Positions 4,029 through 47,035 of a stretch of DNA of 64,000 bases are shown here, piece after piece. The stretch is from Antedon mediterranea. Its lineage: Eukaryota; Echinodermata; Crinoidea; Comatulida; Antedonidae. The stretch is taken from the NCBI RefSeq assembly GCF_964355755.1, contig NC_092670.1:4861001-4925000 (forward strand). Reading direction: 5' to 3'. The notes under the pieces are model-generated. The model made no database searches and was not told the origin of the DNA. It saw nothing but the letters and a program-made list of their open reading frames with translations. The position numbers and the translations under genes were made by a program. Within the stretch, counting starts at the first letter, position 1; each line of letters opens with the position of its first letter.

Positions 4029-4411
4029 AGATTGTAAAGCGCCGCTACGCGGCGCAAAATAGGTAACTGTTTCCAAGCTCCTATCTTATAACACTACGCG
4101 CCCAGTAAATCCATGGACGCCATTCTAGTCCAGTCAATGTACAGTTTCAACTCCCAAAAGTAGACAAAATTGCAACAAAAGATTTTTTTTACTCAACTTA
4201 AAGTTAATTTTACGATAAAAAACATACAAAAAGTCTACCAAAATCGGAAAACTGGAAAGGTGATAAAAAGACAATAAATCAAAGCACTATTTCATTAAAA
4301 TATGTTCGTATTCGGCGTAGTAATATTGTTAGAAATTGTTGTCTCTGATTGGTCGAATAAGTTTTGTGCCGTGTTGTTGTTACGACGGAAAATCTGATAT
4401 TCCCCAACAAG

Positions 4412-4650
4412 TATAGATAAGATAAGATAACTTTTATTGATCCTCAAAAAGGAAATTCATTGCTCGTCATAATAACAAAGAAAACACTATAAAACAACAA
4501 ATATAGCATAAAACCATTCATATAAAAACATCTAAAAAATTACAATATAAAATTATCTTCTTGACTTCCTGTTGTACTGGATGATACCGGAGGGAATAAA
4601 GGATTTAGCAAATCGATTTGTTTTCACACTGAGGAGCCTCAATCTACCAC
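4412..4650 (-). mobile_element. 3' end of a non-LTR retrotransposon (LINE)
   Basis: On the minus strand the sequence reads RLLSVKTNRFAKSFIPSGII, continues QYNRKSRR and ends at a stop near 4558. That is the usual C-terminus of a LINE reverse-transcriptase ORF. A 3' UTR follows, with the ATAAGATAACTTTTATTGATCC-type ending (read on plus at about 4417-4445) seen in many animal LINE tails. The copy is heavily 5'-truncated, with no catalytic motifs left. Confidence 0.7.
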
Positions 4651-6540
4651 TTTATGACTTTAAATCTTGTAATAAGGTAATTTATCCATATTTCATAATT
4701 TTAAAAGCAACATTTAATCTTACATTAACTATTTAAACGAATGCGGCAATGTAAATTAGTCTTAGTAGATACGTAAAAAGCGATATAGCATAGGGAGCGG
4801 GGATCTACTCGCGATGTTGTTGAACAACGTTACGTCACGCTAATTTGCGTGTACTGATGTAGGCCTCCGCTCGTCGTACCACCTAAAGCTAGCAGTACAG
4901 ACACTAGTCTGGGTTCCATACGGAGTTTTGTCTTAATATTAGTAAAAAGATAAATATTTTGGCACATGTGGCGTTTCATACGTATACTACTTGATTTTGG
5001 ATACTCCGTCTGGGGAAACACGCACAAGTCACGTGGTTTGACACCAAGAATTCTTGGTGCATACGATTATCCGGTTGACTAGTTTCAGCTGCATGCGATT
5101 GGCTACTCACTCGTACACCGTTTTAATATTCATATTTCAGAATTTCAAAGACTCAACAACTAAGATGATGCCATGCGCTATGGTATGTACTTGGGTACAT
5201 TTATGAAAGTTTCTGAAGGCTAGAAATGTATATGCCTAGTAGTCTGGTAAACATTTGATGGGATTTTTCCCAAGAACATGAAAACTCGTCTTGATATGAT
5301 AGGCTAGCTTCTCCGCAAATCAAACATTGAATGGATCATTTACGCGGAGATAATTTTGATTTAATTCCCACCCAGACCCTGTCCTGTTCTGTGTGGTGGT
5401 GTAGCCCTGTTGTTGTGTGCCGCCGGTGGTGGTATGTAGGCCTACTTTATTGGCGTTTTATTTGGCAGGTCATACGTGCGAATTTAGGACCTACGAAAGA
5501 GGCCTAGGCTAGGCCAAGGACTAAACAATTAATAAACAAAACAACTTGGCATTACGATTTTATATGTCAACAGTCTCGATCGTACATTCAGCACTGTACG
5601 TACTCGATCTTTTTAATTTTGAAACAAAATGATCATTGGTTGATTCGAAATCTGTATTTACATACCGCCCGCCCCATATAGCCAAATACGGTATGATAAA
5701 CTACGTCATTCTTATCGGATGTTTGCGGTCTGCAAATCGATTTCTATACGTGTTTCACACTGTATTTTCAGACAAAAATCGCGGTCGAAATAAAAACAAA
5801 TAAATAAAAAAAAAAGATAATACAGACTTGGGGCAAGTCTATACAGACACGTGAGACGAGAACGGAGGTGGGCCGGTGGCTGGCACCCCGCCCGGGTAGC
5901 TAAAAGAAGACCGCCGATATTATATAGGCCTAGGAGGCTAGGGGATGATACTAAAAACGATCATTTCAGCCTACTCTGACTAGGCGTAAAAAGACAAAAT
6001 TCGGATATTATTATATAGGCCGAGGCTAGCTAGCCTAGGCCCTAACCGCTCTTCATTTTTTTTAAGGAATTAAGCACAAAAAATAGGCCTAGGCCTACTA
6101 CTACTATGTAAGCCTAGAGGCTATCCTATACTGTCTAATAAAAGGTCAGGCAGTCGCTACCCGACTGGGCCATGGTCTAGATCTAACACCAGATCTAATA
6201 GATATACAGTATAGGGCCTATGCCTAGGTAGCCCGGTAGGCACAGCTATGCACTAAAATCTTAACCTCGGAATGTTTATATAATTAATATAAGAGTAGCC
6301 AGCCTTTTTTAGTAGATTGGCCTAGTTAATTATAACTTATGTAGTAATTATACTTAGGCTAAATAGTATAGTAGTGAGGCTAGGCCTCTATCTAAGTCTA
6401 AGTACTGTAATACTATTTATTTTTTATCAAACCTATAGGCCTAGTAGGCCTATGCGATATACATTTCCTCTGTGTAAACTACAGATTATATTCTATTATT
6501 GTGTTTGTTGATATATCTATTTCATTTACCTTAGATATCT
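4651..6540. other. Non-coding; TAGGCCTA-rich, possible promoter region
   Basis: No convincing exon. A segment near 4940-4985 (minus: ATACGTATGAAACGCCACATG) recurs near 41125-41150 and 50455-50485, so it is a dispersed repeat. The 5600-6000 part is locally richer in CpG (CCGCCCGCCCC, GGGCCGGTGG) and could hold a promoter for the exons at 6564-6877. That is inference. Confidence 0.35.
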
Positions 6541-12335: not shown

Positions 12336-12967
12336 GGCCTTGTTAATGTTTTTGTCTTACTATTATGTCTTTGGTGTATGTTTAAATTGTATGTGTTTGC
12401 TTTACGTTCAAAACGGTCGTGTTAAATGTACTTAACGTAATATTTTTCAGCGATTACCCACGACAGGGCGCGTGTTACTTGTTTTAATATTAAATTATTT
12501 TATGATAAAAGGTAAAACCTGTTGTTGTTATGTAATGTTGTTATCTTTTTTTTGTTTTTTTTTTAAATGTGAATATATATTTTAAATTCAACCTGTTATA
12601 GTTATAGTTGTTTTCATCGCTGTTTGTTGTCAATTGAATTTTAAAAAAAAACATAAGCTAGAAGAAAATTCCGTGTTACAAGATTTATACAAACGCATGA
12701 TAAAGATCATAGCAGTGGTTAGGAATTCGAAATAGAAAATGTAAAGTATGATAACAATCTATTGTTTCTATATCTTATAATCAATTAGGCTACATGCGCT
12801 GATTCAGGATATAAGAGTAATGATAAGATGATTGACGAGTCTTCAACCCATATTAAAACTGATAAGAATAAAAGTGAAAGTTATCTACAACTTGATAAAA
12901 TACGACAGGGTATGAGTTTACAGTACACAAGACATCAACTATACAAAGTTCTCACGACGTGTCTCAC
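12336..12967. other. Upstream region of the TLR gene
   Basis: No exon is seen. This AT-rich stretch should contain the promoter and 5' UTR of the gene that starts at 12968. I cannot identify a convincing TATA box or initiator. Confidence 0.35.
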
Positions 12968-14798
12968 ATGGGAAGATTCAGCTTTGATCATACATTGAAG
13001 ATGTGGCATTATTTGTTTTTGTTTATTGTCGTTGTTTCTGTTACATTCTACTGTCCTATTAGAGGTGAACTAACATGCTACAAATACAATCCGTTAGTAA
13101 ATGGAACTCAGCCACTAGATGACCTAAGATGTCCTAAGAAATGTAGCTGCACATATTGTAAGGTGGAAACGGAATTACACTACAATCATAACGTAGATTG
13201 TTCACATAGACAATTGGAAAGCATTCCATCGCAAGATACTGTGCCAATCGATGTTGGGTATTACCATTTACAGTCTAACAGTATTTCTTTACTGAATAAC
13301 TACTCTTTCAAGAATTTAATTACCCTGAAGTTTTTGCATTTTGATGTAAACAATATGATTTATAAAAGCATTGAGATTAATGCATTTCGTGGTTTGCACC
13401 AACTGAGAAAATTATCTATGAATGAAAATCATTATTTGGCAAAACTTCTTCCTTGGTTTGATGATCTTGTACTTTTAGAAGAACTACATCTGCAGTATTG
13501 TGGATTAACTACAATATATGCTAAGGTATTTAATAATTGCAAAAAACTAATTAAAATTGACCTTACAAAAAACTATATAAACTATCTTCACTCCAGCACT
13601 TTCCACAATTTACCCGTTTTAAAATATTTATATTTAAACAGCAATAAGATTCTAAGAATTCCACCACAAGCATTTAAAGGCTTAGTCCGATTACAAGAAA
13701 TAACTCTCCATGACAACATTTTGCGTACAATCGAAGAAGATGTTGGACTTCAAAATCTTACTCAATTACAGTCTCTAGATGTGTCGTACAATAAATTTAT
13801 ATGTAACTGTGATTTAGTGTGGTTTAGAAAATGGATTGGGGAAACGAATGATACAATTAAAGATATCAATGGTACAAAATGTATCCCAAAACAAGGCAAA
13901 AGATACAAGGAAATAATTGAATTTGATCCTGATGAACTACACTGCAGCAAATTTGAAAGAATTTTGAAAATTACAATTCCTTGTGCTTCAGCTGGACTTA
14001 TTTTTTTATTATTGGGTGTAAGTCTTTACCGTTACAGATTTCATTTAAGGTAAGATCAGTGGTATTTATGTATTTCATCTAACTGCCTAATTTTTAGTTT
14101 TCTTTCCTATTTCAAATGTTTATATTATTATTTTCCTTTGAAACTATTACAAAAATCCTTTTAAATCAACCAGTACGTACTTTTATTACGTTATGCGAAT
14201 CATTTTCGAAGCAGTAACTTATTTATTTCAACGTAGGTACTGGAATCAACGACGGCGTCTTCGTAAACAGTACGAGCGAATTTGCAACCAAGGACCTCCT
14301 ATCATCAACGGAGAAAACATTCGGTATGACGTGTTTGTCTGTTACAACAACAAAGACACACAGTGGGTTCTGAAAGTCTTACAGCCACAGTTGGAGGAAC
14401 AGCGCAATTTTAAATTATGTGTCGACTATCGTGATTTTCTTCCAGGAGAAGCAATCGCTACGAACATTGCAAATGCTGTTAAATTCAGTCGTAAGGTTTT
14501 ATTGGTTGTCTCGAAACACTTCGCCAAAAGTGAGTGGTGCAACTTTGAGTTAGAGATGGCACACATGCGTACGTTAGGCCATGAAGATATATTGGTCGTT
14601 GTTTTAATTGAGAAGGTGTCACCTAAAGACATGCCGATACTCTTGCACAAGATATTGACCACGACAACTTATATCGAATGGGACGAACAACCAAAGAGAC
14701 AAGCATTGTTCTGGGCCAAGCTTGAAACAGCTCTTTTGTCACCTAACTGTCCAAAAGATAGACTCATTGATAGCCCCTTAAACACTTGCGAACGTTGA
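12968..14798 (+). CDS. Toll-like receptor, short ectodomain, two exons
   Basis: Coding exons 12968-14049 and 14237-14798 join across a GTAAGA...GTAG intron (phase 2), giving 547 aa. I chose the first ATG; M12, just before the hydrophobic run WHYLFLFIVVVSVTF, is an alternative start. The ectodomain (about 34-330) has a cysteine-rich N-cap with CPKKCSCTYC, about seven leucine-rich repeats (for example LPVLKYLYLNSNKILRIPPQ), and an LRRCT with CNCDLVWFRKWI. The membrane helix is about 334-353. The cytoplasmic TIR domain (391 to about 535) has box 1 YDVFVCYNNKD, box 2 RDFLPG (R426, D427, P430, G431) and box 3 FW (519-520), so it should be able to recruit TIR adaptors. The ectodomain is much shorter than the usual 20 or more LRRs. 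A short, intron-containing TLR fits divergent classes described in sea urchin. Its ligand is unknown. Confidence 0.95.
14237..14798 (+). CDS. TLR exon 2: juxtamembrane segment and TIR domain
   Basis: The exon starts after ATTTATTTCAACGTAG and completes the Arg codon split across the intron. It encodes a basic juxtamembrane stretch (YWNQRRRLRKQYERI) and the whole TIR domain, followed by a short tail ending in TCER and TGA. The intron at the membrane-TIR junction means the signalling domain is a separable exon. An ATG frame at 14193 runs into this exon through the intron and should not be used as a start. Confidence 0.9.
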
Positions 14799-16054: not shown

Positions 16055-16121
16055 ATGTTGGCTGAACTTGTTCAAAACTTTGTTATAGTTCTCATGTTGA
16101 CTTGTCAGTCTCGATCATCAG
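16055..16121 (+). CDS. Exon 1: signal peptide
   Basis: Encodes MLAELVQNFVIVLMLTCQSR and SS, a hydrophobic leader, before a GTATGT donor in phase 1. An in-frame TAA at 16040 closes the frame upstream, so the protein starts here. Confidence 0.8.
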
Positions 16122-19100
16122 GTATGTTTATTATATAAATAAGAAAGTATATATGTTGGATGGTGATAATTATCCATGGGTTCAATGATTGATTGAAAAT
16201 TTAGATTTAGAAAAAGTTCCTTTTGTTATAATTAGGTAGTTTCAGCTAACTATTCAGGTCCCAAGCACGGAGGGGAGATCATGTTGTATAAAGATGTCGC
16301 TATAATAATCACTTGCGAGGATTTATTCAATAACTGATGGTCAAATTAATATATATTATCTCGAGTTGGGCGTATATATATAAATATAATATAAATTTGC
16401 GTTCAGTGAAATGCGCGCAATTTACAAATTCGAGGAAAACAGAAATATTACTGAGATATTCAAACTTGGATACTTCGTCGACACCGGTTTCGTAAAAAGT
16501 CCAAACAGCTTAATTTGGTGTTTTTATTTTTCTTATAAATATAATACTGTAATGTAACAACGATTTTTAGAATGTGTATACCGTAAAACCTCGAACAGAA
16601 AGGTGAAGGTGCCTTCTTTTCAAGATTACTTGCAAACTAAAGATCTAAATCTTTTCGAAATGAGTACTGTAAATATCGTGAATTGCTACTACATAATAAG
16701 ATATTGAGACATTTCCTGCCAATTTTACATATTTGCCATTGGAACACAAGGAGAAGACAAAGCACGATCATGCATATTATCATCAGTCTAAATCACTAGT
16801 ATCTCACCCAACTACAGTAACTCTTAACTCTTAACTCTTAACCATGTATTTGTTTGATTCACATACATTTATCTCGAATAGAAGCCCATTCTATCGTGAG
16901 GGCTTGATCTCGAGTTGGGCGTATTTTTCTTTGGGCTTCTTTTCGAGGTTTTATGGTATATACTGTACTGTGTTCAGACCAATTAACACAGACGAGCGGT
17001 AACGGCAAGCGGTCACCGCGTAGCTTGTCCAACGTAGGATATGTCTCTCGTCTGCGGAAACTGCCCGTCTGTTCTGCGTTGTGTGTAAATGATCATATCA
17101 TAGATTCTATATTTTTATTACCGTTAACGCTCGTCTGTGTAAATTGTGCTTTTTCCTCAAACACATTTCGAGGGAAGATTTTTTTTAATATAATGACCAA
17201 CTCACTTACTATGCTATACTACTATTAACAAAAAACACTTTCGATTATTCATCAGATGTAATTCTCTATGCAGGAAATTTAGTAAATGCTCCATTGATAT
17301 TAGAATTTTATTGTTTAAGTCTTACTCTCTTAGTATGTATTGTGTAGCATTGTGTTGTGACTTTAATGTGAAGTCTATGAAGTCCTTTCGTGTTTGTTAC
17401 AACAATGCTTTTGGAATAATTTTAAGACGTGCTTGGAGTTGCAGTGCTAGTGCAATGTTTATGGAGAACCATGTTTATGAGTACAATGTTTCTTTAGTTA
17501 ACTAAGAGTGACGGTAATTGAAATTCACTTATCACTTGTGTTAATTCTCGAAAACTGTAGGAAATGGTACCAACTACTATATACATAATTATTATCACTT
17601 TTTTTAACAGAACTTTTCATACCTTATTTGTAATCGAATCTCTTTATGCAATTATTTATTTGTATGTTAAGTATTTGTATTGTTGATTTGAAAAATTGAA
17701 TTAAATTAACCTATCTACAGAAATTGACTATATATTTTTTTTCAAGATCCATTAGATATAATACTATATACTGCAACACCGTTGGTTGGCAATGATAGTA
17801 ACAGTTGGTTTCGAGGATACGCACTTCAAGATGATAAAGACATTAGACATTTATCAGTTGGAGTATTATACAAGAATATTGATGGGAAAGATAACGTAAC
17901 TTGGGATGATATAACTGGTGAGGTCAGAAATTATAACAGCTACATGGAAATGCCAGACGATAAAATATTTCACACGAGTAGCAGAATTGCATACCGCGTA
18001 CACGGGGATTTCGCATATCTAGGCGTTTTAACCTTACCAACCCAAACTGACAGAGTTGGTGTTTTTTCATTTGAAGCAAAAAAAGGTGGAATAGTTACAA
18101 ATTCAGCAATTGTATTAACATCTGCTTCTGGTGAGTAAGGCTTTTAAATTTGTTTGTTGTAATGATATTTATTCATTCATTCATCTTTTTATTTTGGAAT
18201 ACCATGGTGACATAATATATCCATAGCAAAAGAGAGAAAAAAATCTTAATCTAAGAACTCATAGAACAAAAACAAAAATAAATATATAAAGTCAATGCAA
18301 CAAGGCATTCCATTGTATGTGCATTATTGACACATTAAGAACGTGCCGATTAATGGCCATGATCAAAGCATTACTACTTGCGTTCACACGATTTTTAAAA
18401 CTAAAAAAAGATTTTCTAATGAACTCATCAAAGGATGGAACATCATTTCAGACAAACATCATGCTTGCGCTACAATTTCTAGGCTGCTTCAGCAGCAAAC
18501 GTAAGGCATTAATATAGTATATATACATAGTTCAATTAGGCTTTGTAAGCCAGCCACTGACGAAGCCAAACCAAGTCATCGGCAAAGCTTAGGCAATTCA
18601 GTTTAAGACTGTTAATTTCACAGTACAACCTTCTTTTGACTTAGTCAGTTCAACAGTTAACGGATCAGTGTACACATTGTAAAGTAAAGGGGACATAACG
18701 CCTCCCTGGCGAACCCCATTACAAACTGTGAAAGAATATTATATATATATCAACAAATTATTGTTGTACCTAATATTAATATCAATAGTAATTAGTAATT
18801 TTTCAATAAAATCATTTTTGACAGCCATTATTGAATTTGAGTATAGAACGATAACAGTCAGCATTGGAGAGTCAGTCAGAATCAACATCAGGAATGGGAG
18901 TTTTATTGACAACATACGTTGGAGACATAATTATGAGGAACTATACAATCTGAGGAATGCATCTTCTGTTGTGATTGAAAACATTCACATAAAGGATGAC
19001 GGCGTGTTTGAATGTTATATAGGTGATAACCCTGACGGTAATCATGGTATAATGAGGCTTATTGTCAGAGGTAAATTATTGTAAATCAATAAATCTGTAT

Positions 19101-22100
19101 TATATATTGTATTATTAGTATGACTTATATTATTTAAACAAACTATGAATGCAATGTGCAAGTGAGTGCCGCGAGCCTGCAAATGTTCATGAAGATAGAA
19201 TGTAATCCACCGAACAATATTCTGGCTGAGAGTGATGTACCAGTGTTCTAGTGTAGTTTGAGGTTTTTTTTCTTTTTTTTTCTCATTAGAAGAGAGATAG
19301 TTCGTCAATTTAGCTAATTCATTTATTTTGTGTTTAAAAGACTACGTCAATAGACTGCTACTAAAGCATCATAGGCTATATTTTGTTCACATTACCAAAT
19401 AGCTCTTAATTAAACCGAACATTGAATCACATGTATTTACATATCTATATTATTTTTTTTCAATTAGCTTGTCCTTCACCAAAATGGAGTTTACCAGATT
19501 GCGAAATGGACTGTCCCGTTTGTTATAATAATGGAGTGTGTGATGACAAAACGGGTGTCTGTATTTGTCCAGCAGGATTTGATGGCGATGCTTGCAAACA
19601 CGGTGATCAATAACTTTATACCGCGTTCATGTCTTGTGTATGTAGCTCTCGATTCGTTAATTGGCTCGCGAGCGGTTCATGACGAGAACAGCCGCTCAAA
19701 GTGTGGATTCTATCGAGAGCGATTAATTTATTAGCTTAAAATTATATGACGGTAAAATTATCAAAAATTAAATTCCAGTTTAACTTACTTTGATTTACTT
19801 TATTTGCAATAGATTGCGGTAATAACAACTGGGGCCGTGACTGCCTTAATGTGTGTAGCAGTAAACCTGGTTCAACGTGCAGAGGAGCTCTTGTATGTCC
19901 ACCTGACCCAGTTGGCTGTACATGTGTCAATGGTTTTGAAGGAAACGATTGTGATACAGGTTTTTATTACATCCGATTTTCAGTAGGCCTACTGTGTTTT
20001 ATTTTTTTCTGATTTGTAAGAAAGTTTCTAAATACAGCTCAATATGTTCGTCACTTGTTTCAACTGTATCAAATAAATTATTTGTAATCATCATCATACT
20101 CATCATTAGTCTCATCATTTCATATAACTATATATTTTTAGAGTGCACTTCTGGATACTTTGGAGCAGACTGTAGCCAAAAATGCCACTGTAATGATAGC
20201 TATTGTGATATACACATAGGATGTACCTCAACCGAGTCAATGTGTTCGTCTGGGTATACTGGTGACACATGTCAAGGTAGCGTATGTTACAATGTGTAGA
20301 AAACCCCAGCTAATGCAACAATCGTAGTAAAGAAATCCATAGTTAATGTATATATGTTGTAGTGAAACGTCCAGCAAACATAATGTTGTACCAATTATTT
20401 AAAAACAAAACATTATTTGCTGCTTTGTTCTTATTAGTGCCCATGGACTGTCCATCCGGATTGTTTGGTCTCCTGTGTAATTTCCAATGCCACTGCAAAG
20501 ATTATGCAGGTTGTAATCGAGATGGGAGTTGTCCTAATGGATGTGACGAGGCCTGGTTTGGATCGGATTGCAGCATAGGTAACACCACAAACTGAAATCT
20601 ATATTGTCATAGAATTGTACGTGAAAAAGACACTCTATAATAATAAAAATAAATGGATAATAATGAATGAAACCGTCCATGATTTAACTGCTTCACCAAT
20701 TATATAAAACATTACAGAACAAATTAGTAGCGAAATACTAATATAGTACGGTACCGACTTTAAAAAAAAACAAATAATTTATTAGTAATAATTTCTTATA
20801 AATTGTAGTTATAATAGTAGGCCTAATTATGAATAGTTAAATCCCATCGTATGTTATCTCATCGTGGTTTTCGTAAATCCAAAAAATATCTTACTCTTAG
20901 TAAACTACTGTTAGTTGTACCAGTGCTTTTCTTTAGTTTCTCAGCGTGGTATGTATTCATAAGATTTCAGAATCAAATTGTTAAAATCTCCTGAAACTAC
21001 AGTATGAAAGATGAATTCATAAAACTAAAAATGTATATAAAATAGGTAAAACAGTAATTATTTAAATTCCATCCTTTCAAATAAAACAAAGACAAATAAA
21101 CACTCTTTATATTATTTGCATAGAAACAATCAAATATGATTTAGGTTTTGATAATAGAAGACCAAGAGGCTAAAGCTTCACATATACAGTATTTCATTCA
21201 GATGAATGTGGAAATAATAGGCCTACTTTGTTTTGGTTGATAAAGTTTGCGGTAAACCACGTGTGTTCTTAATAAGAACGATCGACGTATTGATCGGAAC
21301 GTCGAGAAACTCTCAAGATTTCTTTTCAGAACTACATACGTGGTGTACCGAAAACTTTATATAAACATATTGATTTCACCATGCAAACCTCCAAACAAAA
21401 TACTTTATATTTTGTAATTAGCATTACCATACCGTTTTGAACCGCCAACTGTAGTAAACCAAACAGCAACTACCATAACGTTTGACGTCACTTGGGTTTT
21501 TGGTGAAGATTATGGAACAGGAACAATTACAAAAAGAAAGCTTTGGTATAAATCGTCACAGATGGATTCCTTTCTATCAATAAATGAACCTGATAATGGT
21601 TCATCTATTGTTATTGATAATCTCATCCCAAATGAGCAGGTTAAATTCTACTGTCAGTTTTCAAGGATGGTTGGTGGTATTGAAGTAGATGGCCCAGAAA
21701 GTGCAGTTGGATCAACTAACACCATATGTACAAGTAAGCTCAAACTATACAACTTATGCTTCATTTATGATTACAAACCAGATGAACATTTATAATCATA
21801 CAAAACTTCTATTTTTTAATACCGTAATTAGTAATAATACAAGATACAAGAAAACCAAATGTGACAGTTGAAATTCTTCTTGCTTGCTGCAAGAACTCAC
21901 CACACTACAACATAAATAAATTCTAAACTGAAACATTATCTTAAAAATCTACAGTTGAACTCATGGATTGCATTTACTAGGAAGGAGTATCTGTGCCGAT
22001 TAGTATGCCCCTTAAGAGGCCTAATCCTACCTGACTTTTTTTTTTTTTTTAATTATTCAATTTTTAGGCAAATTGCCAAGGATAACCACAAGTGAACTCA

Positions 22101-25100
22101 ATCACTGTCCTTCTCTCAAAAGTGGCTCTCCTGTCAAACATATACACAAGATGCTCTACATAAACAAAGACTTCCTACAAGTCTTTGGGAGTGGAGTTGC
22201 AAATTGTCATGAGAAAAAATCCTGATATATGACAGGACTTGAACCCAGGACTCTTAGATTGGTAGCCAAGCATCATAACTACCAAGCTACAACTCCACTC
22301 CACAATATACTGATTTAGAGGGTGTTTTGTATTATGCATGATCTTAATAAAATGCTTATATAACTGGTAGCCAAACAATAAAGATATATCAAAATATAGA
22401 TTGCAATTACATTTTATAACACGAACTGGGTTTTTACGTACAGCATTGTTTGCTTATTCCAATTGATTCAAGATTCAGATCAGACAAAGATTCCAGAAAT
22501 TATGAATTCTGGTTTTTATAAAGTGCATACCGTATTTATTCGAATAAACGTTTCTTCGAGGGGAGGCCTTTATTCCACTAATTATTCTGTTAAATTACAT
22601 GTAGAACCATTGGACGAACCTGTGATAGAATTAAAAACTGTTGAAGATAATCAAATCATCTTGAGTTTAAAGGTATTGAAAAAGAATTATTTCTAGCTAA
22701 CATTTTATTTCTTGTTGCAATACAGATTATGTATTATGTTTATTGTAACTTATATTCTATTGATATTGGGTATTATAAATTGTATTGGGTTTGTTGGGTA
22801 TTGTTTTTTTACCACAATTTGTCCAGAAAAACTATTAAGTTTTATTTCCAACGTGCTAAGGTAGAAATATAACTTACATCAAACTATGTTCTACATCTGG
22901 CTACTGTATCTTTTCTGACACTAATTAGCAATACTGATATAATACGCGTTCCTTTTATTTATTACATTCTAATTTATTTGAATTTTCAATCTTAAAATAT
23001 TCAGCCAGTTTCAAGAGATTATGACCGAATCCAATGTAACTCTATCCTTCGCTATCAAGTTCAATACTGGAACATTTATACGAATGTAAAATATGTAATC
23101 AATTATACAACCATCAGTTCTAAATTAGAAGTTAAATTATCAAAACTATCAAGTTGTTCTGGCTATATCGTAAACGCTCGAGTTGTTAATGACATGGATA
23201 TTGCTGGAAGATGGGGACAAGACACAACAGTACAAACAACGCCAACAGGTTTGAATTGATAATTATTTTATATATATTATTTAAAATACAAATAAATGAT
23301 ATTAGTGCGCTGGTTGCAATATGACATATTATTGTATAGATAAAAATGAATAGAATAGTTTATAATACGTTACTACGAAAGAAGTTCTTGCAATTAAACA
23401 CCATAACGAGTATTATATTTAACGTTTGATATTTCAATGTTTAAATAACAGAGCCAACAATACAGGGTAATCCATTTGCAAACGGCACACTCATGTTGAT
23501 TAAGTGGAATGCTTCAACGTGCGACATTTCAAACTATCACGTGATCTACCATTATGAATTGTCAGGCGGAATATTTATGAAAGGAACTACATCGGAAAAA
23601 GAAGTTGTGTTTGAAATTCAGTTCTGTAAAAACTACACATTTTCAGTATTAGCATCATATGTAAACGTTTACGGAAAATCTGACACAAGAACAATCATAT
23701 CTAGAACCGATTGTGATCCAGATTCGATTGGGCCTATGTCAGGTTTATAAACATCAAATTATTTTCTTATTGCTTATGATTTGTATAATAGCTATCGAAA
23801 CCTATTTGTAAATTTTATCAAATAAGTGCACAATAACCACTAATTTACTGCAAGGGAAGTATTTCCTGAAACATTTTTTTTAGTTAGTTACTGCATGTGC
23901 GTACAGTTTTTAAGTTTATGTCGTTAAAGAATTTCAACATCAAGATAAAAGCATAAAGAACTTGTTTTATTCACAGCTTACGGAATTTTAATTGGTTCAT
24001 TACTGGCGGCGGTTTTTACAGTTACAGTCATGTTGACAATCATTAAGCGGTAAAGTATCACGCTAGACCGTTACTGGGGTTGAACATAGAATAATTGATA
24101 AAATAGATAGGCCTAAATATATTGTCAGACTTACACAGATGAAATTACCCATTTTTTCCAATTTTTCATAAAACTTGCCCTATAAAATAACATGACATTG
24201 TTTTCGTAGATTTATACTTAGAAGAACAAAAAAAGACGTTGATAAATCTTCATCTAGGCCTACTACTCAACAAAATGTGTGTACGATAGATACAAATTAC
24301 CAAGGTTTGTGTAAAAAATATGAATATGAAAGTGGTAAGTCTGATGTTGGGACTTCTTCTGCTGAACCCATACACACAAACACTGAAGTACCAGAACATT
24401 TTTCTGATTTTACGAATATGAAAACTCGAAGAGAAAATGAAACTAGTGTGGCTACTGTCAATGATTCTGATGAACCCGTATATGCTGACCCTGAACAAGA
24501 GAGGGAACCGGAACCTGTTTATGACAAAAGTGAATATGCAAGAAACAACTCTACAGTTGCTACTTATTCTGATGAACCCGTATACACAGATCCTGAACAA
24601 GAGAGGGAACCGGAACATGTTTATGACAAAAGTGAATATGAAAAAAACAATTCTACAGTTGCTACTTATTCTGATGAACCCGTATACACAGATCCTGAAC
24701 AAGAGATGAAACCGGAACCACAGTTTGTTTACAACGAAAATGAATACAACAACATCAAGTCTACTAGAAGTGTAATATCTTCTGTTAAACACGTACACCC
24801 AGACCCTGAGCCTCTACCAGAGCGTATTTCTGGTAACACAGAATCCGAAAGTCAAGAATACAAACCTATTGAGTTATCCAAATTACGTGACTATGTAATG
24901 AAGCATCTATTGAAGAAAGAATTCGAGGTACTCTACACTCCTAAATTGATTATTCTTTTATCTTGTGTTGTATAAACCCACCATCTTGCGTATGTATTTT
25001 CCCTGAAACATATAAAATGTTTGAATAGGCCATTTTTAATTCAAGTTTAAAAAATTAAAAAAAATAGTTACGTAGCCCCCCCCCCCCCCCTACACTAACA

Positions 25101-27830
25101 AAATCAGCAGATCTTGTTGGTACAATAAAACAATCCGAATAAAGTCAATGTTTCTACATTTTCAGGCATTAAACAGTTTGTTTCCAGATGATGCAAGACG
25201 AGCAGATTTCAGTTTCAAGAAAACTTTTCATGATGTTTTGTTCCGTAAGTTCTAAAGAAATGTTTTAACAAATATAATTAAAAATTAATAAATTACAACA
25301 TCAGATAAAAGTGTGATACGGAGGACAATTGTTTATTGCTAATTTTATTTTGAAGGTGAGAACAAAAATGTACTTAAGTGTCTCACCGCTCTCCCTTGAC
25401 TTCTAAGCCGCCTCTGTTTTTGTTTTCTCTTTAATAACAAAAAACAAAGTTCCTACACAATTGATTATCTCAACCATACAGGATCACTTTTATTTAGAGG
25501 GTTTTCTGTAAGTTGAAAACGTAATTCATTTATTCATCCATCAAGAGTCGGTGTCAGTTTAATTTCAAAATGGCGGGATAGATCCAGAGAAGAGTAATTT
25601 CACTTTTCCCTGATAGATCAATGTCGATGACTGAATAAGTTTTTGAGAGAGGGTTACATTTAAGTGTATATTTGGTTAATCAGTATTTATTCCTAACCAG
25701 ATGTTTAAATGGAAACATCTTTTTCCTCAACATTAAGAATTGCACGTTATTTAGGTAATTAGGGTACAAGTGTATACTCATGTTATGCTTACAATGCAGC
25801 AATAGTTACCTAGATAATTTTTATTGTTGATTAGTAATATTGTTGATTAGTAATTGTGATTTTTTTTAACAATTGTAATATTTTTTTTATTCATCACAGT
25901 AACTAAAGGATGCTCCCAATTAAGTCCAGACGTCGACAGTGGCGTTGATTACGTAAATGATTCGTTTATTGAGGTATAATACCTAACCATCAAATCTTCA
26001 AAACATAATTAACATTTTCCCAAATCTTCTAAGAGTGAGAAGTATTGAATCACATTGTTTGTGTTTGTAAATAATTATATAAATACTAATAAGTTCATCA
26101 AAATACAGCAATTTTTACATCATAATGATAAAGTGGTTATTAAACACAAGGCAAGTATTAGAAGCACAACACTAAAACACTGTTGATATTATAACACTAT
26201 TGTATAAAATATAAATTTTTTTTCTGACGGATTGCGTTAATTATAGACCAGCCATTTGCCTACCATATTATATATTATATTAAGTAACATTTCACTATTC
26301 TTCTCTTGCATTATTTCTTAGCGTTACAGGGATCGCCATACTTTTATCGTTACTCGGAACCCCTCGTTGAATACTACTATAGATTTTTGGCGTTTGGTAT
26401 TTGATTATAAGTCTGACGTCATTGTGCAACTAAATGAAGTAGAAGATCTCAATTGTGCAGTGTACCTTCCAAAAAAGAAAAATGAAAGACTGAAATGTTA
26501 TGAATATACGGTTACTTTGGAGGCAACTGTGCTCAACCAATTTGGAATTGAGAGAAGATTTATTCTAGAAAAGGTTATTCATGTGTTCATAATTTGTTTA
26601 GTAAGGAGGATCCAAAGTTTTAAATAAACGCCAAATTTGCATATTTTGGCAAATCTGGCATGATGTTCATTTGTACTTACATATAAAATGCAGTATATCA
26701 CATACTGTATACATAGATGTCATTTTTATTGTATGTTATAATGTAGTTTACAATAATTTCTTTCATATCATCTTACTTAATTCAGAATATGACAAATAAA
26801 ATACTTTAAAAAATATATTGATGATGATAACAATAATAAATATATACATAAAAAACATTCATAAAAAAGATAGTGCAATATCCATAAAATAACTGACCAA
26901 CCAGAAGAGCGTTTTTGAAATTATTAGTATAAGAAATCTTTGCCTGAGAGATTATTCAAAGCTAGCGGGAATTATCATTCTTGTACTGTATTAATAATTT
27001 TTTATAGATTACAACCTCAAATGTAACATTCTAGACCAATAACACAAAAATTTGACCAATGACTCAAATATTATTTGTATCGCAAATTTATCAAATAAGC
27101 AATACCCATATATAATAATACTATTTGTAGTCTAAATAAGTTTGTTTTGTGTTTCTTGAAGGATAACACTGTACGCCAAATGATTCAATATGAGGTTAAA
27201 CAATGGTCAAAAAACGAACCAGTTCCAAAGGTTAATGCATTTGTTAAATTCGTTATGAAAATAATGGATGGATATGGCAAGTCTTCTAATAATACACCGA
27301 TTACTGTTCATTGCATGTGAGTAGAGATTTAAGTATTGATTATTATAGTCTACTGATTAGAATATATATAAATTACGTCATTTAAAACAATTTCAAACAC
27401 AAAAATAGGCCTACTTGAAATTCGACGGTTAAATTTAGTTTAAAAAAACATAACCAGCCTAATTCTGTCTTTAGAGACGGTGTTTGCAGATCTGGTTTAT
27501 TCTGTTTAGTGTATTCAATGATTGAGAAAATGAGAGAAGAAAAGATAGTAGATGTTTTCCAGACACTGAAAGCACTGCGTTCAGCAAGCACCAATATGGT
27601 GGACTCACAGGTAATACTTTGTTTATCATCAAAAACATGAAGATGAAGATGAAATACAATATTTAGCTGCATAAGCACATAAATAATTAGGCATACGTCA
27701 TTATTTTACTTACCCTATTCATTTAACTGTGTTTTATTTACTGATTTAGATCCAGTACAACTTTTGTTATGAAGCTGCCCTGTGTTATCTTAGATGGTGC
27801 GAGGATAACAACGTAATGCCGAATAATTAA
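16055..27830 (+). CDS. Tie-like Ig/EGF/FN3 receptor with PTP-like cytoplasmic domain
   Basis: Nineteen exons with matching phases give one open frame of 3870 nt, about 1289 aa. Exons: 16055-16121, 17747-18130, 18825-19070, 19468-19602, 19813-19959, 20142-20276, 20438-20578, 21422-21733, 22473-22672, 23005-23248, 23452-23742, 23977-24049, 24210-24927, 25166-25244, 25900-25973, 26322-26573, 27162-27316, 27475-27610, 27750-27830. Ectodomain order is signal peptide, two Ig-like, four EGF-like, then FN3-like modules. A membrane helix and a long tail ending in one PTP domain follow. Nearly all ectodomain introns are phase 1, as in shuffled extracellular modules. The start ATG has an in-frame stop 15 bases upstream. 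The ectodomain resembles Tie receptors, but the tail is phosphatase-like, not kinase. The weakest exon boundary is 22473. Confidence 0.85.
16578..16959. mobile_element. MITE in intron 1 (ATACCGTAAAACCTCGAA ends)
   Basis: Terminal inverted repeats ATACCGTAAAACCTCGAA and its complement TTCGAGGTTTTATGGTAT match with one difference, and TA flanks are visible. Inside the right end is CTCGAGTTGGGCGTAT, which also occurs at 16360-16376, so part of a second copy lies just upstream. The ends are of a type widespread in invertebrate genomes. Confidence 0.65.
16981..17146. mobile_element. MITE in intron 1 (ACACAGACGAGCGGTAACGG ends)
   Basis: AATTAACACAGACGAGCGGTAACGG at the left is matched inversely by CCGTTAACGCTCGTCTGTGTAAATTG at the right. 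A related copy lies at about 39190-39335, in an intron of the small membrane-protein gene. The 91-codon frame through it is spurious. Confidence 0.65.
17747..18130 (+). CDS. Exon 2: N-terminal Ig-like module
   Basis: This 128-codon exon encodes a beta-rich module with no cysteine at all. VTWDDITG and VGVFSFEAKKGG stand where Ig domains have their core Trp strand and the GxYxC strand. I therefore read it as an Ig-like fold without the usual disulfide, as in the first module of Tie-like proteins. Splice sites: TTTTTTTTCAAG acceptor, GTGAGT donor. Confidence 0.7.
18165..18725 (-). mobile_element. LINE reverse-transcriptase relic in intron 2
   Basis: On the minus strand from 18725 the frame reads NGVRQGGVMSPLLYNVYTDP, the LINE fingers block. 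After stop codons and a frameshift comes SFADDLVWLRQWLAYKA, which keeps the FADD catalytic motif. Further down is INALRLLLKQPRNCSASMMF then DVPSFDEFIRKSFFSFKNR, the usual C-terminal region. An (ATGA)n-like tail is near 18171-18184. It has stops and gaps and is dead. It lies antisense to the host receptor gene. Confidence 0.8.
18825..19070 (+). CDS. Exon 3: second Ig-like module
   Basis: The 82-codon phase-1 exon has the Ig core Trp (NIRWRHN) and the DDGVFECYIG signature of the F strand. The first Ig cysteine is missing (VRINIRNG at that place), so only one Cys remains and the canonical disulfide cannot form. The donor is GTAAAT. Confidence 0.8.
19468..20578 (+). CDS. Exons 4-7: four EGF-like modules
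   Basis: Exons 19468-19602, 19813-19959, 20142-20276 and 20438-20578 are each phase 1 to phase 1 and each encode one Cys-rich unit of 45-49 residues. Examples are CYNNGVCDDKTGVCICPAGF, NNWGRDCLNVCSSKPGSTC, CTSGYFGADCSQKCHC and CPSGLFGLLCNFQC. The GxxGxDC endings and laminin-EGF-like pattern match the EGF block of Tie and MEGF receptors. The donor of exon 4 (GTGATC) is poor, but the phase and the following exons support it. Confidence 0.85.
21241..21359. mobile_element. 119-bp MITE in intron 7
   Basis: TAAAGTTTGCGGTAAACCACG at the left is matched inversely by CGTGGTGTACCGAAAACTTTA at the right, with two differences. It is flanked by TA, as in mariner-type elements. Confidence 0.75.
21422..21733 (+). 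CDS. Exon 8: FN3-like module
   Basis: Encodes 104 residues from FEPPTVVNQTATTITFDVTW to ESAVGSTNTICT. The Pro-rich start, core Trp, KLWYKS strand and the IVIDNLIPNEQVKFYCQF strand pair follow the fibronectin type III pattern. Donor GTAAGC, phase 1. Confidence 0.75.
22020..22310 (-). repeat. tRNA-derived SINE, copy 2, in intron 8
   Basis: Inverted copy of the SINE at 345-603. The B-box reads GGACTTGAACCC on plus near 22238-22249, and the tail is the T run near 22037-22050. It sits just before exon 9, whose start is the least certain in the gene. Confidence 0.8.
22473..22672 (+). CDS. Exon 9: half module plus start of an FN3; TE-like insert
   Basis: The frame reads IPEIMNSGFYKVHT, then VFIRINVSSRGGLYSTNY, then SVKLHVEPLDEPVIELKT to a GTATTG donor in phase 0. 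Only the C-terminal half of one beta module is present before the next FN3 begins at PLDEP. The DNA at about 22528-22580 (ACCGTATTTATTCGAATAAA...CGAGGGGAGG...TTTATTCC) looks like the end of a common invertebrate repeat, so part of the exon may be transposon-derived. Acceptors at 22471-22472 and 22477-22478 both keep frame; a more upstream CAG (22441-22443) does not. Confidence 0.6.
23005..23742 (+). CDS. Exons 10-11: FN3-like modules
   Basis: Exon 23005-23248 completes the FN3 begun in exon 9 (ILRYQVQYWNIYTNVKY ... CSGYIVNARVVND). Exon 23452-23742 encodes another, from NGTLMLIKWNASTCDISNYH to NYTFSVLASYVNVYGKS and a short stalk. Both have the FN3 core Trp and Tyr positions and several NxT/NxS sequons. 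Confidence 0.75.
23977..24049 (+). CDS. Exon 12: transmembrane helix
   Basis: Encodes AYGILIGSLLAAVFTVTVML then TIIK, one hydrophobic helix followed by basic residues of the next exon (RFILRRTKK). This sets the membrane boundary at about residues 769-790, with the C-terminus inside the cell. Confidence 0.9.
24210..24927 (+). CDS. Exon 13: cytoplasmic tail with tyrosine repeats
   Basis: One 718-nt exon encodes the stop-transfer sequence, a Ser/Thr-rich linker, three tandem tyrosine-rich repeats (24466 to about 24760), and the first helix leading into the PTP domain (ELSKLRDYVMKHLLKKEFE). It is highly acidic and probably disordered. The open frame on the opposite strand is a shadow created by the repeats. 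Confidence 0.85.
24466..24760 (+). repeat. Three 102-bp coding repeats (34 aa each)
   Basis: Units start at 24466, 24568 and 24670, each opening with Ser-Asp-Glu-Pro-Val-Tyr. Each unit carries VYADPE or VYTDPE, then VYDKSEY (the third has VYNENEY), giving about three tyrosines per unit in acidic surroundings. YADP and YTDP fit the YxxP pattern bound by Crk-type SH2 domains. Units 1 and 2 are nearly identical at DNA level, so the expansion is recent. Confidence 0.85.
25074..25090 (+). repeat. Poly-C run in intron 13
   Basis: A run of about 16 C residues in an AT-rich intron. It may vary in length between individuals or be a sequencing problem spot. Confidence 0.8.
25166..27830 (+). CDS. Exons 14-19: protein-tyrosine-phosphatase domain, probably inactive
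   Basis: Six exons encode one PTP fold. In order: KKTFHDVL where active PTPs have KNRYxxVL (Tyr to Phe); GVDYVNDSFIE (YINASYI); HTFIVTRNPSLNTTIDFWRL (the TQGP-DFW block, with Gln to Arg); QWSKNEPVP in place of WPDHGVP, with no Asp in line; VHCIDGVCRSG as the P-loop, keeping Cys1217 and Arg1223; and MVDSQIQYNF, where the catalytic Gln of the Q-loop reads Asp. Known PTP chemistry needs the WPD Asp as general acid, so turnover should be very low. The retained Cys and Arg suggest phosphotyrosine binding or redox sensing instead. Many RPTPs carry such D2 pseudophosphatase domains, but usually behind an active D1, which is absent here. Confidence 0.85.
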
Positions 27831-27891: not shown

Positions 27892-27897
27892 AATAAA
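27892..27897 (+). terminator. Polyadenylation signal of the Tie/PTP-like receptor
   Basis: AATAAA lies 62 bases past the stop codon, followed by a GT/T-rich stretch (GGTTGTTACC...TTTTTGTTT). This gives a short 3' UTR. Confidence 0.65.
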
Positions 27898-45262: not shown

Positions 45263-46205
45263 AACAAAATCATGTTTTAATTTATGTTAGGCCTATGTTA
45301 ATATTATTTTAGATCCAAATAATATTTGGCGGCCATCTTAAGTGGTCACCTCTCCTGTTGGAATCGCATACGTCCTGTCTATACAGTTGACGATAGTACT
45401 TACTCAGTCGATGCACTGTTATTGTGATTCAAGCAGACAAGTTGCCCCATTTTGTAAGTCACTCAAATCAAAAAGTATTTATAATTCATCAACTCATTTA
45501 ATTGTACATTATTACTGTGTTAAAATATCCAATACCATGTCTAAAATTCGACTTATTATAGATTACTTAATTACTGTACCTACACATCCAAAATGGACCA
45601 TTCGTATTGGAAGATTTATTGATTGATAGACCAGCTGACATGTAGGTAAATCACCTGGTTTTACCTTAGCATGGTTATACCAGTCACCATATGAAAATAA
45701 AGTAAAATCAATCCATTATGAAAATTACATGGATGATCTGCTCGAATTAGCTTAGCATATCCCTCGGCAAGATGTCACATGTGACAGGAGCAACCATTTA
45801 CATAAAAGATAATCAATTTGTATACAGGACTTAATTTAGTAATTGTAAAAAAAAAACCTGTTTAATTTCTAAGTAATAGCTTACAAGTGGGAATACGTGA
45901 AGAAGGCTACTAAAATAAGAAGTATCTTATCCCAAGGACATCATTAATTGACTGGAAGGATCTCTAATTAATATTGAGTCAAAGTTCAGGATAGAAAAAT
46001 GTATGATTGTGTTATTTTATGATAGTAGTATTAATGAATAAAGAAGGTTACAATAAGTGGTGACAAGAATATTTTTTCGGAAAGTGCATAATTAACAGAA
46101 TAGAAAATGTGATGAGTATAATGTTTATTATAGTGACGTTGAAATAAGATTGATACCCAGATATCTTGTGATCTGACGATAATGAGAAGCTGAACAATGT
46201 TGGCA
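45263..46205. other. Intergenic, no supported gene
   Basis: The 94-codon frame at 45342-45626 begins beyond the MITE and shows no recognisable domain or splice context. I do not annotate it. Confidence 0.35.
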
Positions 46206-46218
46206 ATATAAATGATAC

Positions 46219-46720
46219 GATAATAATTATAATGATAGCAATCGTGATGACAATAATGATGGTGACGATAATAATGATAATGATAGCAATCGTGATGACA
46301 ATAATGATGGTGACGATAATAATTATAATGATAGCAATCACGATAACAATAATGATGGTGACGATAATAATGATAATGATAGCAATCATGATGACAATAA
46401 TGATGGTGACGATAATAATGATAATGATAGCAATCACGATGACAATAATGATGGTGACGATAATAATGATAATGATAGCAATCACGATGACAATAATGAT
46501 AGTGACGATAATAATGATAATGATAGCAATCATGATGACAATAATGATGGTGACGATAATAATGATAATGATAGCAATCATGATGACAATAATGATGGTG
46601 ACGATAATAATGATAATGATAGCAATCATGATGACAATAATGATGGTGACGATAATAATGATAATGATAGCAATCACGATGACAATAATGATGGTGACGA
46701 TAATAATGATAGCAATAGAT
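46219..46720. repeat. 48-bp minisatellite, about ten copies
   Basis: The unit is built from GATAATGAT, GATAGCAATC and GATGACAATAATGATGGTGAC phrases. GATAGCAATC recurs exactly every 48 bases from 46234 to 46666, with few substitutions. Because 48 is divisible by 3 and the unit is stop-free in several frames, long open frames appear on both strands. Their translations (strings of Ile, Met, Thr, or His and Tyr) are artefacts. Confidence 0.9.
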
Positions 46721-47035
46721 GATAACGATAATAACGATGATGGTATTGATGATGACAATCAAGATGATGAAAATACTGATGATAATGACAATAATAGGAG
46801 GAAAATGATGATAATAATAGATGAAGCTATAATGATGATGACAATCAAGATGATTACGATAGTGAGGGTGACGACAATGATAATGACGATAACAATGGTG
46901 AGAATGATAATGATGATAATAATGATGACGATAATGGATGACGCCCTAATGATGATGACAATCAAGACTATGACAATGATGGTGACGATAATGATAATGA
47001 CGATATTGATATGATAACGATGATAGTGATGCTCT
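46721..47035. repeat. Degenerate GAT-rich flank of the minisatellite
   Basis: A decayed GATGATAATGAC-type array continues from the ordered 48-bp array, without fixed period. Confidence 0.75.

Follow-up and report, generated by a model that had tools for sequence, protein, structure and literature searches.

Structure of the receptor gene in the window

The window analysed here is a 64-kb stretch of the Antedon mediterranea genome, and it contains at 16055-27830 a gene that we rebuilt as 19 exons with GT-AG introns throughout, matching phases and a single terminal stop, encoding a protein of 1289 aa (Table 1). This reproduces the 19 phase-consistent exons of a preliminary description of the same DNA. 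A purpose-written spliced aligner with the model protein as query placed the internal boundaries exactly as in the model, and slight deviations were confined to the ends of queries and of exon 12. The main evidence that the ectodomain exons and the PTP exons form one gene comes from two paralogs, genes c (L002) and h (L003), which repeat the exon order of the window gene with mostly identical cut points, the ectodomain, membrane and D2 exons having the same order and strand; gene c is complete within 9.2 kb. Exon 9 is uncertain in both paralogs and is the weakest link of the window model. To obtain a neutral expectation, the window coding sequence was mutated at 0.32 changes per site, about half of dS to the nearest paralog, in 200 runs. 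The simulated sequences contain a mean of 39 stops and at least 27 in every run, versus none in the real sequence, which excludes an open frame by chance.

A Pfam scan of the window protein detects PF00102 once, as a PTP domain (E 9.9e-45), with no second enzyme family above its cut-off, in agreement with the single PTP domain described before; PF00102 being the sole family past its cut-off, a Tie-type cytoplasmic kinase is absent from the protein. The single membrane helix and the tyrosine-repeat tail of that description are also found, the former as a hydrophobic stretch read by eye in exon 12 and the latter as a cytoplasmic tail with 16 Tyr, three YxxP sites and a 102-bp repeat (2.5 copies, 92% matches).

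Table 1. Features of the receptor gene, with positions in the window
Feature	Position	Strand	Basis
Exon 1: start codon, signal-peptide-like hydrophobic N-terminus	16055..16121	+	model; hydrophobicity by eye
Exon 2: N-terminal domain, fold unrecognised, without cysteine	17747..18130	+	family alignment, 12 members
Exon 3: Ig, Tie2 second-Ig-like	18825..19070	+	Tie2 alignment; weak Ig matches
Exon 4: EGF-like 1, Tie EGF1-like	19468..19602	+	EGF_2 above cut-off when scanned alone; Tie2 alignment
Exon 5: EGF-like 2, Tie EGF2-like	19813..19959	+	Tie2 alignment
Exon 6: EGF-like 3, Tie EGF3-like	20142..20276	+	Tie2 alignment
Exon 7: EGF-like 4, outside Tie2 alignment	20438..20578	+	cysteine pattern by eye
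Exon 8: FN3, Tie2 FN3-1-like	21422..21733	+	5-member profile against PDB
Exon 9: second FN3-like unit, first part	22473..22672	+	model; weakest in paralog alignments
Exon 10: second FN3-like unit	23005..23248	+	model, paralog alignments
Exon 11: last FN3-like unit, family marker	23452..23742	+	genome search
Exon 12: transmembrane helix	23977..24049	+	hydrophobic stretch then basic residues, by eye
Exon 13: cytoplasmic tail, 16 Tyr, three YxxP	24210..24927	+	model
102-bp tandem repeat in tail, 2.5 copies	24464..24719	+	repeat search
Stub of D1 N-terminal segment, D2 directly after	about 24853..24927	+	tblastn with sister D1s; phases
238-bp phase-0 intron at position of sisters' D1 exons	24928..25165	+	model, sister alignments
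Exon 14: first D2 exon, KNRY-equivalent KKTF	25166..25244	+	model, sister alignments
Exon 15: D2	25900..25973	+	model, sister alignments
Exon 16: D2, TRNP	26322..26573	+	PF00102 52.8 bits
Exon 17: D2, WSKNEPVP at WPD-loop place	27162..27316	+	PF00102 25.4 bits
Exon 18: D2 P-loop (HCIDGVCRSG spans junction), Q-loop Asp	27475..27610	+	PF00102 32.5 bits
Exon 19: D2 C-terminus, stop	27750..27830	+	model, sister alignments
AATAAA, possible polyadenylation signal	27892..27897	+	common by chance in AT-rich DNA

The ectodomain aligns to Tie2

Judged by these alignments, the ectodomain really is Tie-like. The best three PDB matches of exons 3-6 are all Tie2, covering its second Ig and EGF1-3 (E 1.6e-33 to 1.9e-33), and three of the four EGF exons align to Tie2 EGFs; in Pfam, the first EGF alone passes a cut-off, and solely when its exon is scanned by itself. 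The top three PDB matches of a five-member profile of exon 8 are also Tie2, at its first FN3, with weak scores (whole-chain E 5.2e-5, best single domain 0.014), and Pfam fn3 is detected in three of the five members. A single-sequence PDB search with the FN3 region of the window gene gave no match at E up to 1.

Exon 2 had been taken for a first Ig domain. Searched against Pfam and PDB, alone or as a 12-member profile, it gives no convincing match, Ig included, and it has no cysteine; the Ig assignment was rejected for want of evidence. A single-sequence AlphaFold model (pLDDT 37.4) is too poor to inform, and the 12 family members align at 46-69% identity to the window copy. The Ig-Ig-EGF4-FN3 order proposed earlier therefore stands for the second Ig and three of the EGFs, which align to Tie2, but its first Ig is undetectable. 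Compared to Tie2 (TEK), with which the second Ig, EGF1-3 and FN3-1 align, the window gene has no kinase, has a fourth EGF, shows no third Ig between the EGFs and FN3, and begins with a domain unrecognisable as Ig. The dN/dS of exon 2 is 0.38-1.08 (55 pairs, 11 copies), and that of D2 is 0.15-0.34 for pairs with dS of at least 0.4 and up to 0.69 in younger pairs, indicating faster evolution of the head than of D2 when pairs of similar distance are compared.

The PTP domain is assigned to the LAR-type D2 domains

The window PTP domain is identified as a LAR-type D2 by two results: it scores 121.8 bits to D2 of PTPRS in PDB versus 93.9 bits to D1, and a joint tree of 30 domains separates 19 D2 rows from 11 D1 rows (95/84), with the window domain inside a starred set of 11 D2s (100/100), although the tool warned that long branches (p_D2, LAR_D2) meet in this tree. 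The D2 domains of PTPRS and PTPRF (LAR-type R2A) are its best PDB match, and the best 60 of 243 PDB matches are R2A and other PTPs, none of them named PTPRN. The window gene differs from the LAR-type R2A PTPs in its ectodomain, in the absence of D1, in the P-loop Ala to Asp change and in further loop losses. The A. mediterranea genome also contains a LAR-like gene that carries both D1 and D2.

The P-loop reads HCIDGVCRSG and retains Cys and Arg, as noted before, and the motif losses listed with it are equally real: WSKNEPVP takes the place of WPD, KNRY has Phe for Tyr, TRNP replaces TQGP and Asp replaces the Q-loop Gln. The positions whose change marks a pseudophosphatase (WPD Asp, KNRY Tyr, TQGP Gln and Gly, and Q-loop Gln) are thus all altered, and the window PTP domain is very probably inactive on these motifs. 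Among 18 family D2s, WPD Asp and Q-loop Gln are each kept in none, Cys and Arg are each kept in all 18, and the P-loop Ala gives way to Asp in 16 D2s and to Asn in the other 2. A KNRY Tyr is seen in 3 of 17 (b, c and d), a doubtful count because exon 14 is poorly aligned. The 11 family D1s all keep WPD Asp and Arg, and they keep Cys in 10 (lost in gene m), Q-loop Gln in 10 and KNRY Tyr in 7. Because the D1s keep WPD Asp and none of the 18 D2s does, the "dead" motifs of the window domain are mostly inherited D2 traits. The losses had been read as special; within the family, only WS for WP and TRNP are peculiar to the window gene.

The D1 exons are missing between two phase-0 introns

Among the D1+D2 genes, the D1 N-terminal segment (PIELSKxHDYV...EKEF) forms the end of the tail exon and is followed by the D1 exons; D2 then opens at TLNxLF. 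In the window gene, PIELSKLRDYVMKHLLKKEFE ends exon 13 and D2 (ALNSLF) occupies the exon after it, each in phase 0. Sister D1s match the stub at 24853-24930 in tblastn, with a lowest E of 3.6e-6. All 10 D1+D2 genes have phase 0 at the junction preceding D2, and the junction preceding D1 could be read cleanly as phase 0 in 5 of the 10, the aligner having overrun in 4 and fallen short in 1. When 12 sister D1 queries were run by tblastn against the whole 64-kb window, with the D1-bearing locus L013 as positive control, they matched the stub, the D2 exons and chance sequences only (best chance E 0.88), which bears out the statement that the same gene holds no active phosphatase. Three D1 queries against the D2-only loci b, c, d, h and i likewise matched the stub, D2 and chance sequences only. 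The exon comparison indicates that the D1 exons of the window gene are lost between two phase-0 introns, so that the tail and stub join the inherited D2 in frame. It is highly probable, on these comparisons, that the window gene has the anatomy and origin of a D1-deleted member of a lineage-expanded receptor family with a Tie-like head and LAR-like tandem PTP domains.

The preliminary description had proposed the replacement of a Tie receptor's kinase by a PTP module. This is not supported: the family ectodomain carries a LAR-like D1+D2 pair, D2 alone or no PTP found. PF07714 is absent near the receptor arrays and in the window among the matches listed (133 of 772 candidates), and in the downstream DNA of nine loci the sole kinase-like motif is a single DxG-like match in L022. 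No recognisable kinase or PTP accompanies the more distant ectodomain copies L020 (on C4) and L021 (at C5:1.75M). The kinase swap was rejected on the absence of a kinase in or near the family among those listed matches and in the nine loci, and the comparisons identify the actual event in the window gene as loss of D1.

One ectodomain family with and without PTP domains

The last FN3 exon of gene h was used as a family marker and searched against the whole genome. Of the 38 places found, 31 reach at least 60% identity to the query. Most lie on C5, in the intervals 7.66-8.07 Mb and 25.20-25.32 Mb, and C1 (the window gene), C7 and C17 have one place each. The 31 places were classed by a D2 search, in which all 133 candidates were scored, and by a D1 search, in which the matches listed were used (139 of 181 candidates). 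Eleven lead to D1+D2 and belong to 10 genes, one of which has the marker exon twice. Another six lead to D2 alone (the window gene, b, c, d, h and i), 13 have no PTP before the next ectodomain among the matches listed (for D1, 139 of 181), and one lies at the end of contig C17. The D1+D2 sisters in the C5 arrays share with the window gene the ectodomain exons, membrane helix, tyrosine tail and D2, and differ from it in having D1, with catalytic residues mostly kept, where the window gene has the D1 stub alone.

The PTP-less class of 13 places is provisional. In the partial DNA of six of these loci, 31 D1 and D2 queries gave no match better than E 0.4, and the same queries gave 216 matches in the control locus L013. 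A tyrosine-rich tail exon without PTP can be read in five of the six. In the tail of one PTP-less member, L024 (C5:25216000-25220700, - strand), a frame of about 390 aa consists of repeats such as DLVYDDTELDNQIEYNNFKP.

The first EGF exon finds many further places at 48-62% identity, at C6:26.0-26.4 Mb, C3:13.1-13.2 and 27.6 Mb, and C8:15.76-15.79 Mb, and PTP domains sit among the matches on C6; the wider receptor family therefore exceeds the one counted here. Inside the receptor array, in L008 (C5:8062200-8068600), reverse-transcriptase-like open frames are seen by eye at about 4228-5314, where the ectodomain copy seems curtailed.

History of D1 loss and selection on D2

Seven D2-only rows form one clade with genes j, k, l and m (99/98; 100/100 in other trees), the C17 row being counted as D2-only although its contig starts inside D2 and its D1 state is not readable. 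The best trees do not group the D2-only genes together, but a single D2-only clade is not rejected by the AU test (p 0.146 with 19 rows, 0.0835 with 17 rows). Similarly, a clade of the window gene, h and i is not in the best tree and is not rejected (p 0.123); these three genes have in common a 6-residue gap in the stub. The dS of gene b is 0.27 to the D1-bearing gene l and 0.69 to h, and because b is nearer to l than to h, at least two losses of D1 are likely on these distances. Gene conversion may be an alternative account of the closeness of b and l. Genes j, k and l keep D1 with its KNRY Tyr lost, and D1 of gene m has lost its Cys, suggesting that D1 seems to weaken in the branch where it also vanishes.

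The D2 of the window gene compared to that of h has a dN/dS of 0.30 (95% 0.19-0.47) at dS 0.64, and the value to b is 0.26, indicating that the window D2 is under constraint without D1. This constraint is probably less tight than in the D1-intact sisters, among which D2 dN/dS is 0.10-0.18 versus 0.25-0.34 here, with overlapping intervals. Gene i has an in-frame stop.

Proposed function and alternatives

We propose that the window gene encodes a non-catalytic receptor, and give this proposal as a whole a probability of roughly 0.45. The receptor would reach the cell surface, where the Tie-like head would recognise a ligand; its motifs predict that its intracellular part would not dephosphorylate by the normal mechanism. 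Its D2 would bind the same partners as D2 of the D1+D2 sisters, and the tyrosine tail, once phosphorylated by other kinases, could dock SH2 adaptors at its YxxP sites. YxxP favours Crk-type SH2 domains. The receptor would thereby sequester common partners and act against the active sisters, a role also proposed for human PTPRU towards PTPRK. The 19 intact exons, the D2 dN/dS of 0.30 and the Cys and Arg kept in 18 of 18 D2s speak for the proposal. The decaying relatives (the stop in i and the lost D1 Cys in m) and a D2 constraint weaker than in the D1-intact sisters speak against it.

Related systems offer partial parallels. Partner recruitment by D2 domains of human RPTPs has a precedent in PTPRK, whose D2 recruits Afadin (PMC9640194). 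PMC7320164 describes PTPRU as inactive, as binding PTPRK substrates and as a proposed decoy; PTPRU resembles the window gene in lacking an active PTP domain in its chain and in being proposed to act as a decoy for the substrates of active sisters. It differs in keeping both domains, with D1 inactivated by mutation, and in having another ectodomain and belonging to another RPTP group. By analogy, a decoy or scaffold role of the window receptor is possible, at somewhat under even odds. In PTPRN and PTPRN2, the P-loop Ala position is altered to Asp. These two are not known to derive from a D2 through exon loss in a tandem gene, and they have another ectodomain and setting. PTPRN and PTPRN2 (IA-2 and phogrin; R8) are likened to the window gene by a single inactive PTP domain: PMC7320164 names them as inactive receptor PTPs, and PMC2638020 describes IA2 and IA2beta as single-domain. 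On these descriptions, the window gene is not the first lone pseudophosphatase receptor (PMC7320164, PMC2638020).

The tail might itself be the output, with D2 a structural or dimerisation remnant, making the window receptor a phosphotyrosine scaffold like its PTP-less sisters. The three YxxP sites and 16 Tyr, the tyrosine tail in five of six PTP-less loci including the long repeat tail of L024, and the failure of 31 queries to match better than E 0.4 in those six loci versus 216 matches in L013 all fit such a scaffold, but a D2 with a dN/dS of about 0.3, an open frame and a family-wide Cys and Arg (18/18) goes beyond what a remnant would need, and we regard the scaffold as unlikely, though a serious contender. 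The Cys and Arg also bear on the module suggested by the preliminary description, a stand-alone D2 that binds phosphotyrosine or senses oxidation via its P-loop. RPTP D2 domains are implicated in redox sensing in PMC7320164, which agrees with this module, but KNRY Phe, P-loop Asp, TRNP and Q-loop Asp should all spoil the phosphotyrosine pocket. Partner binding by PTPRK D2 is reported to be phosphorylation-independent (PMC9640194), and this, too, tells against the module, which we consider improbable.

Because several family members decay, the window copy might be drifting too, heading for a pseudogene without function of its own. Broken array copies (i with its in-frame stop, m with its lost D1 Cys) and the position of the window copy alone on another chromosome would suit such a fate; 1289 open codons against the roughly 39 stops that neutral drift would bring, splice sites that are all canonical and an upper bound of 0.47 on D2 dN/dS against h make it very improbable. 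As for unusual catalysis by the window D2, for example on another substrate, the intact C-X5-R would allow it, but WPD Asp is missing from all 18 D2s and the P-loop Ala is replaced by Asp or Asn in all 18, and we give this the least credence.

The non-catalytic, D1-deleted receptor can be set in a broader reading, in which one tandem family with a common fast-evolving Tie-like head would have three graded outputs (D1+D2, a D2-only decoy and a PTP-less tyrosine tail), antagonists would arise repeatedly by D1 loss between phase-0 introns, and the window gene would be the dispersed, longest-standing D2-only member. This broader reading is tentative and somewhat unlikely to hold in full; if true, it would describe a paired-receptor system with antagonists born repeatedly of clean D1 loss. 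The role of an RPTP D2 is hard to part from that of D1 because the two normally lie in one chain. D1+D2, D2-only and PTP-less versions behind one ectodomain in the same genome amount to a natural deletion series with a D2 retained under selection in the absence of D1, which makes a substrate-recruiting or decoy role of D2 directly testable, and a Tie-like ectodomain is here joined to a phosphatase instead of a kinase. Within the open-licence PMC literature we found no report of a PTP receptor with a Tie-like head or of such a deletion series, and both appear to be undescribed there; annotation elsewhere is possible.

Other features of the window

About 1.3 kb upstream of the receptor gene and on the same strand, a Toll-like receptor gene or remnant lies at 12899-14053 and 14142-14798 (+ strand), with leucine-rich repeats (LRR_8 E 2.4e-26) and a hydrophobic stretch followed by a TIR domain (E 2.4e-22). 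Intron 2 of the receptor gene contains at 18598-18738, on the - strand, a fragment resembling a retroelement reverse transcriptase by eye (GVRQGGVMSPLLYNVY). The long open frames on both strands at 46031-47014 consist of simple repeat and are not gene-like in appearance. The assembly comprises 354 Mb in 18 contigs, and a search for COX1 in it gave no match. The palindrome TAGGCCTA occurs 42 times in the window versus 0.47 expected, about 90-fold over chance; an excess of this palindrome is a mark of echinoderm genomes.
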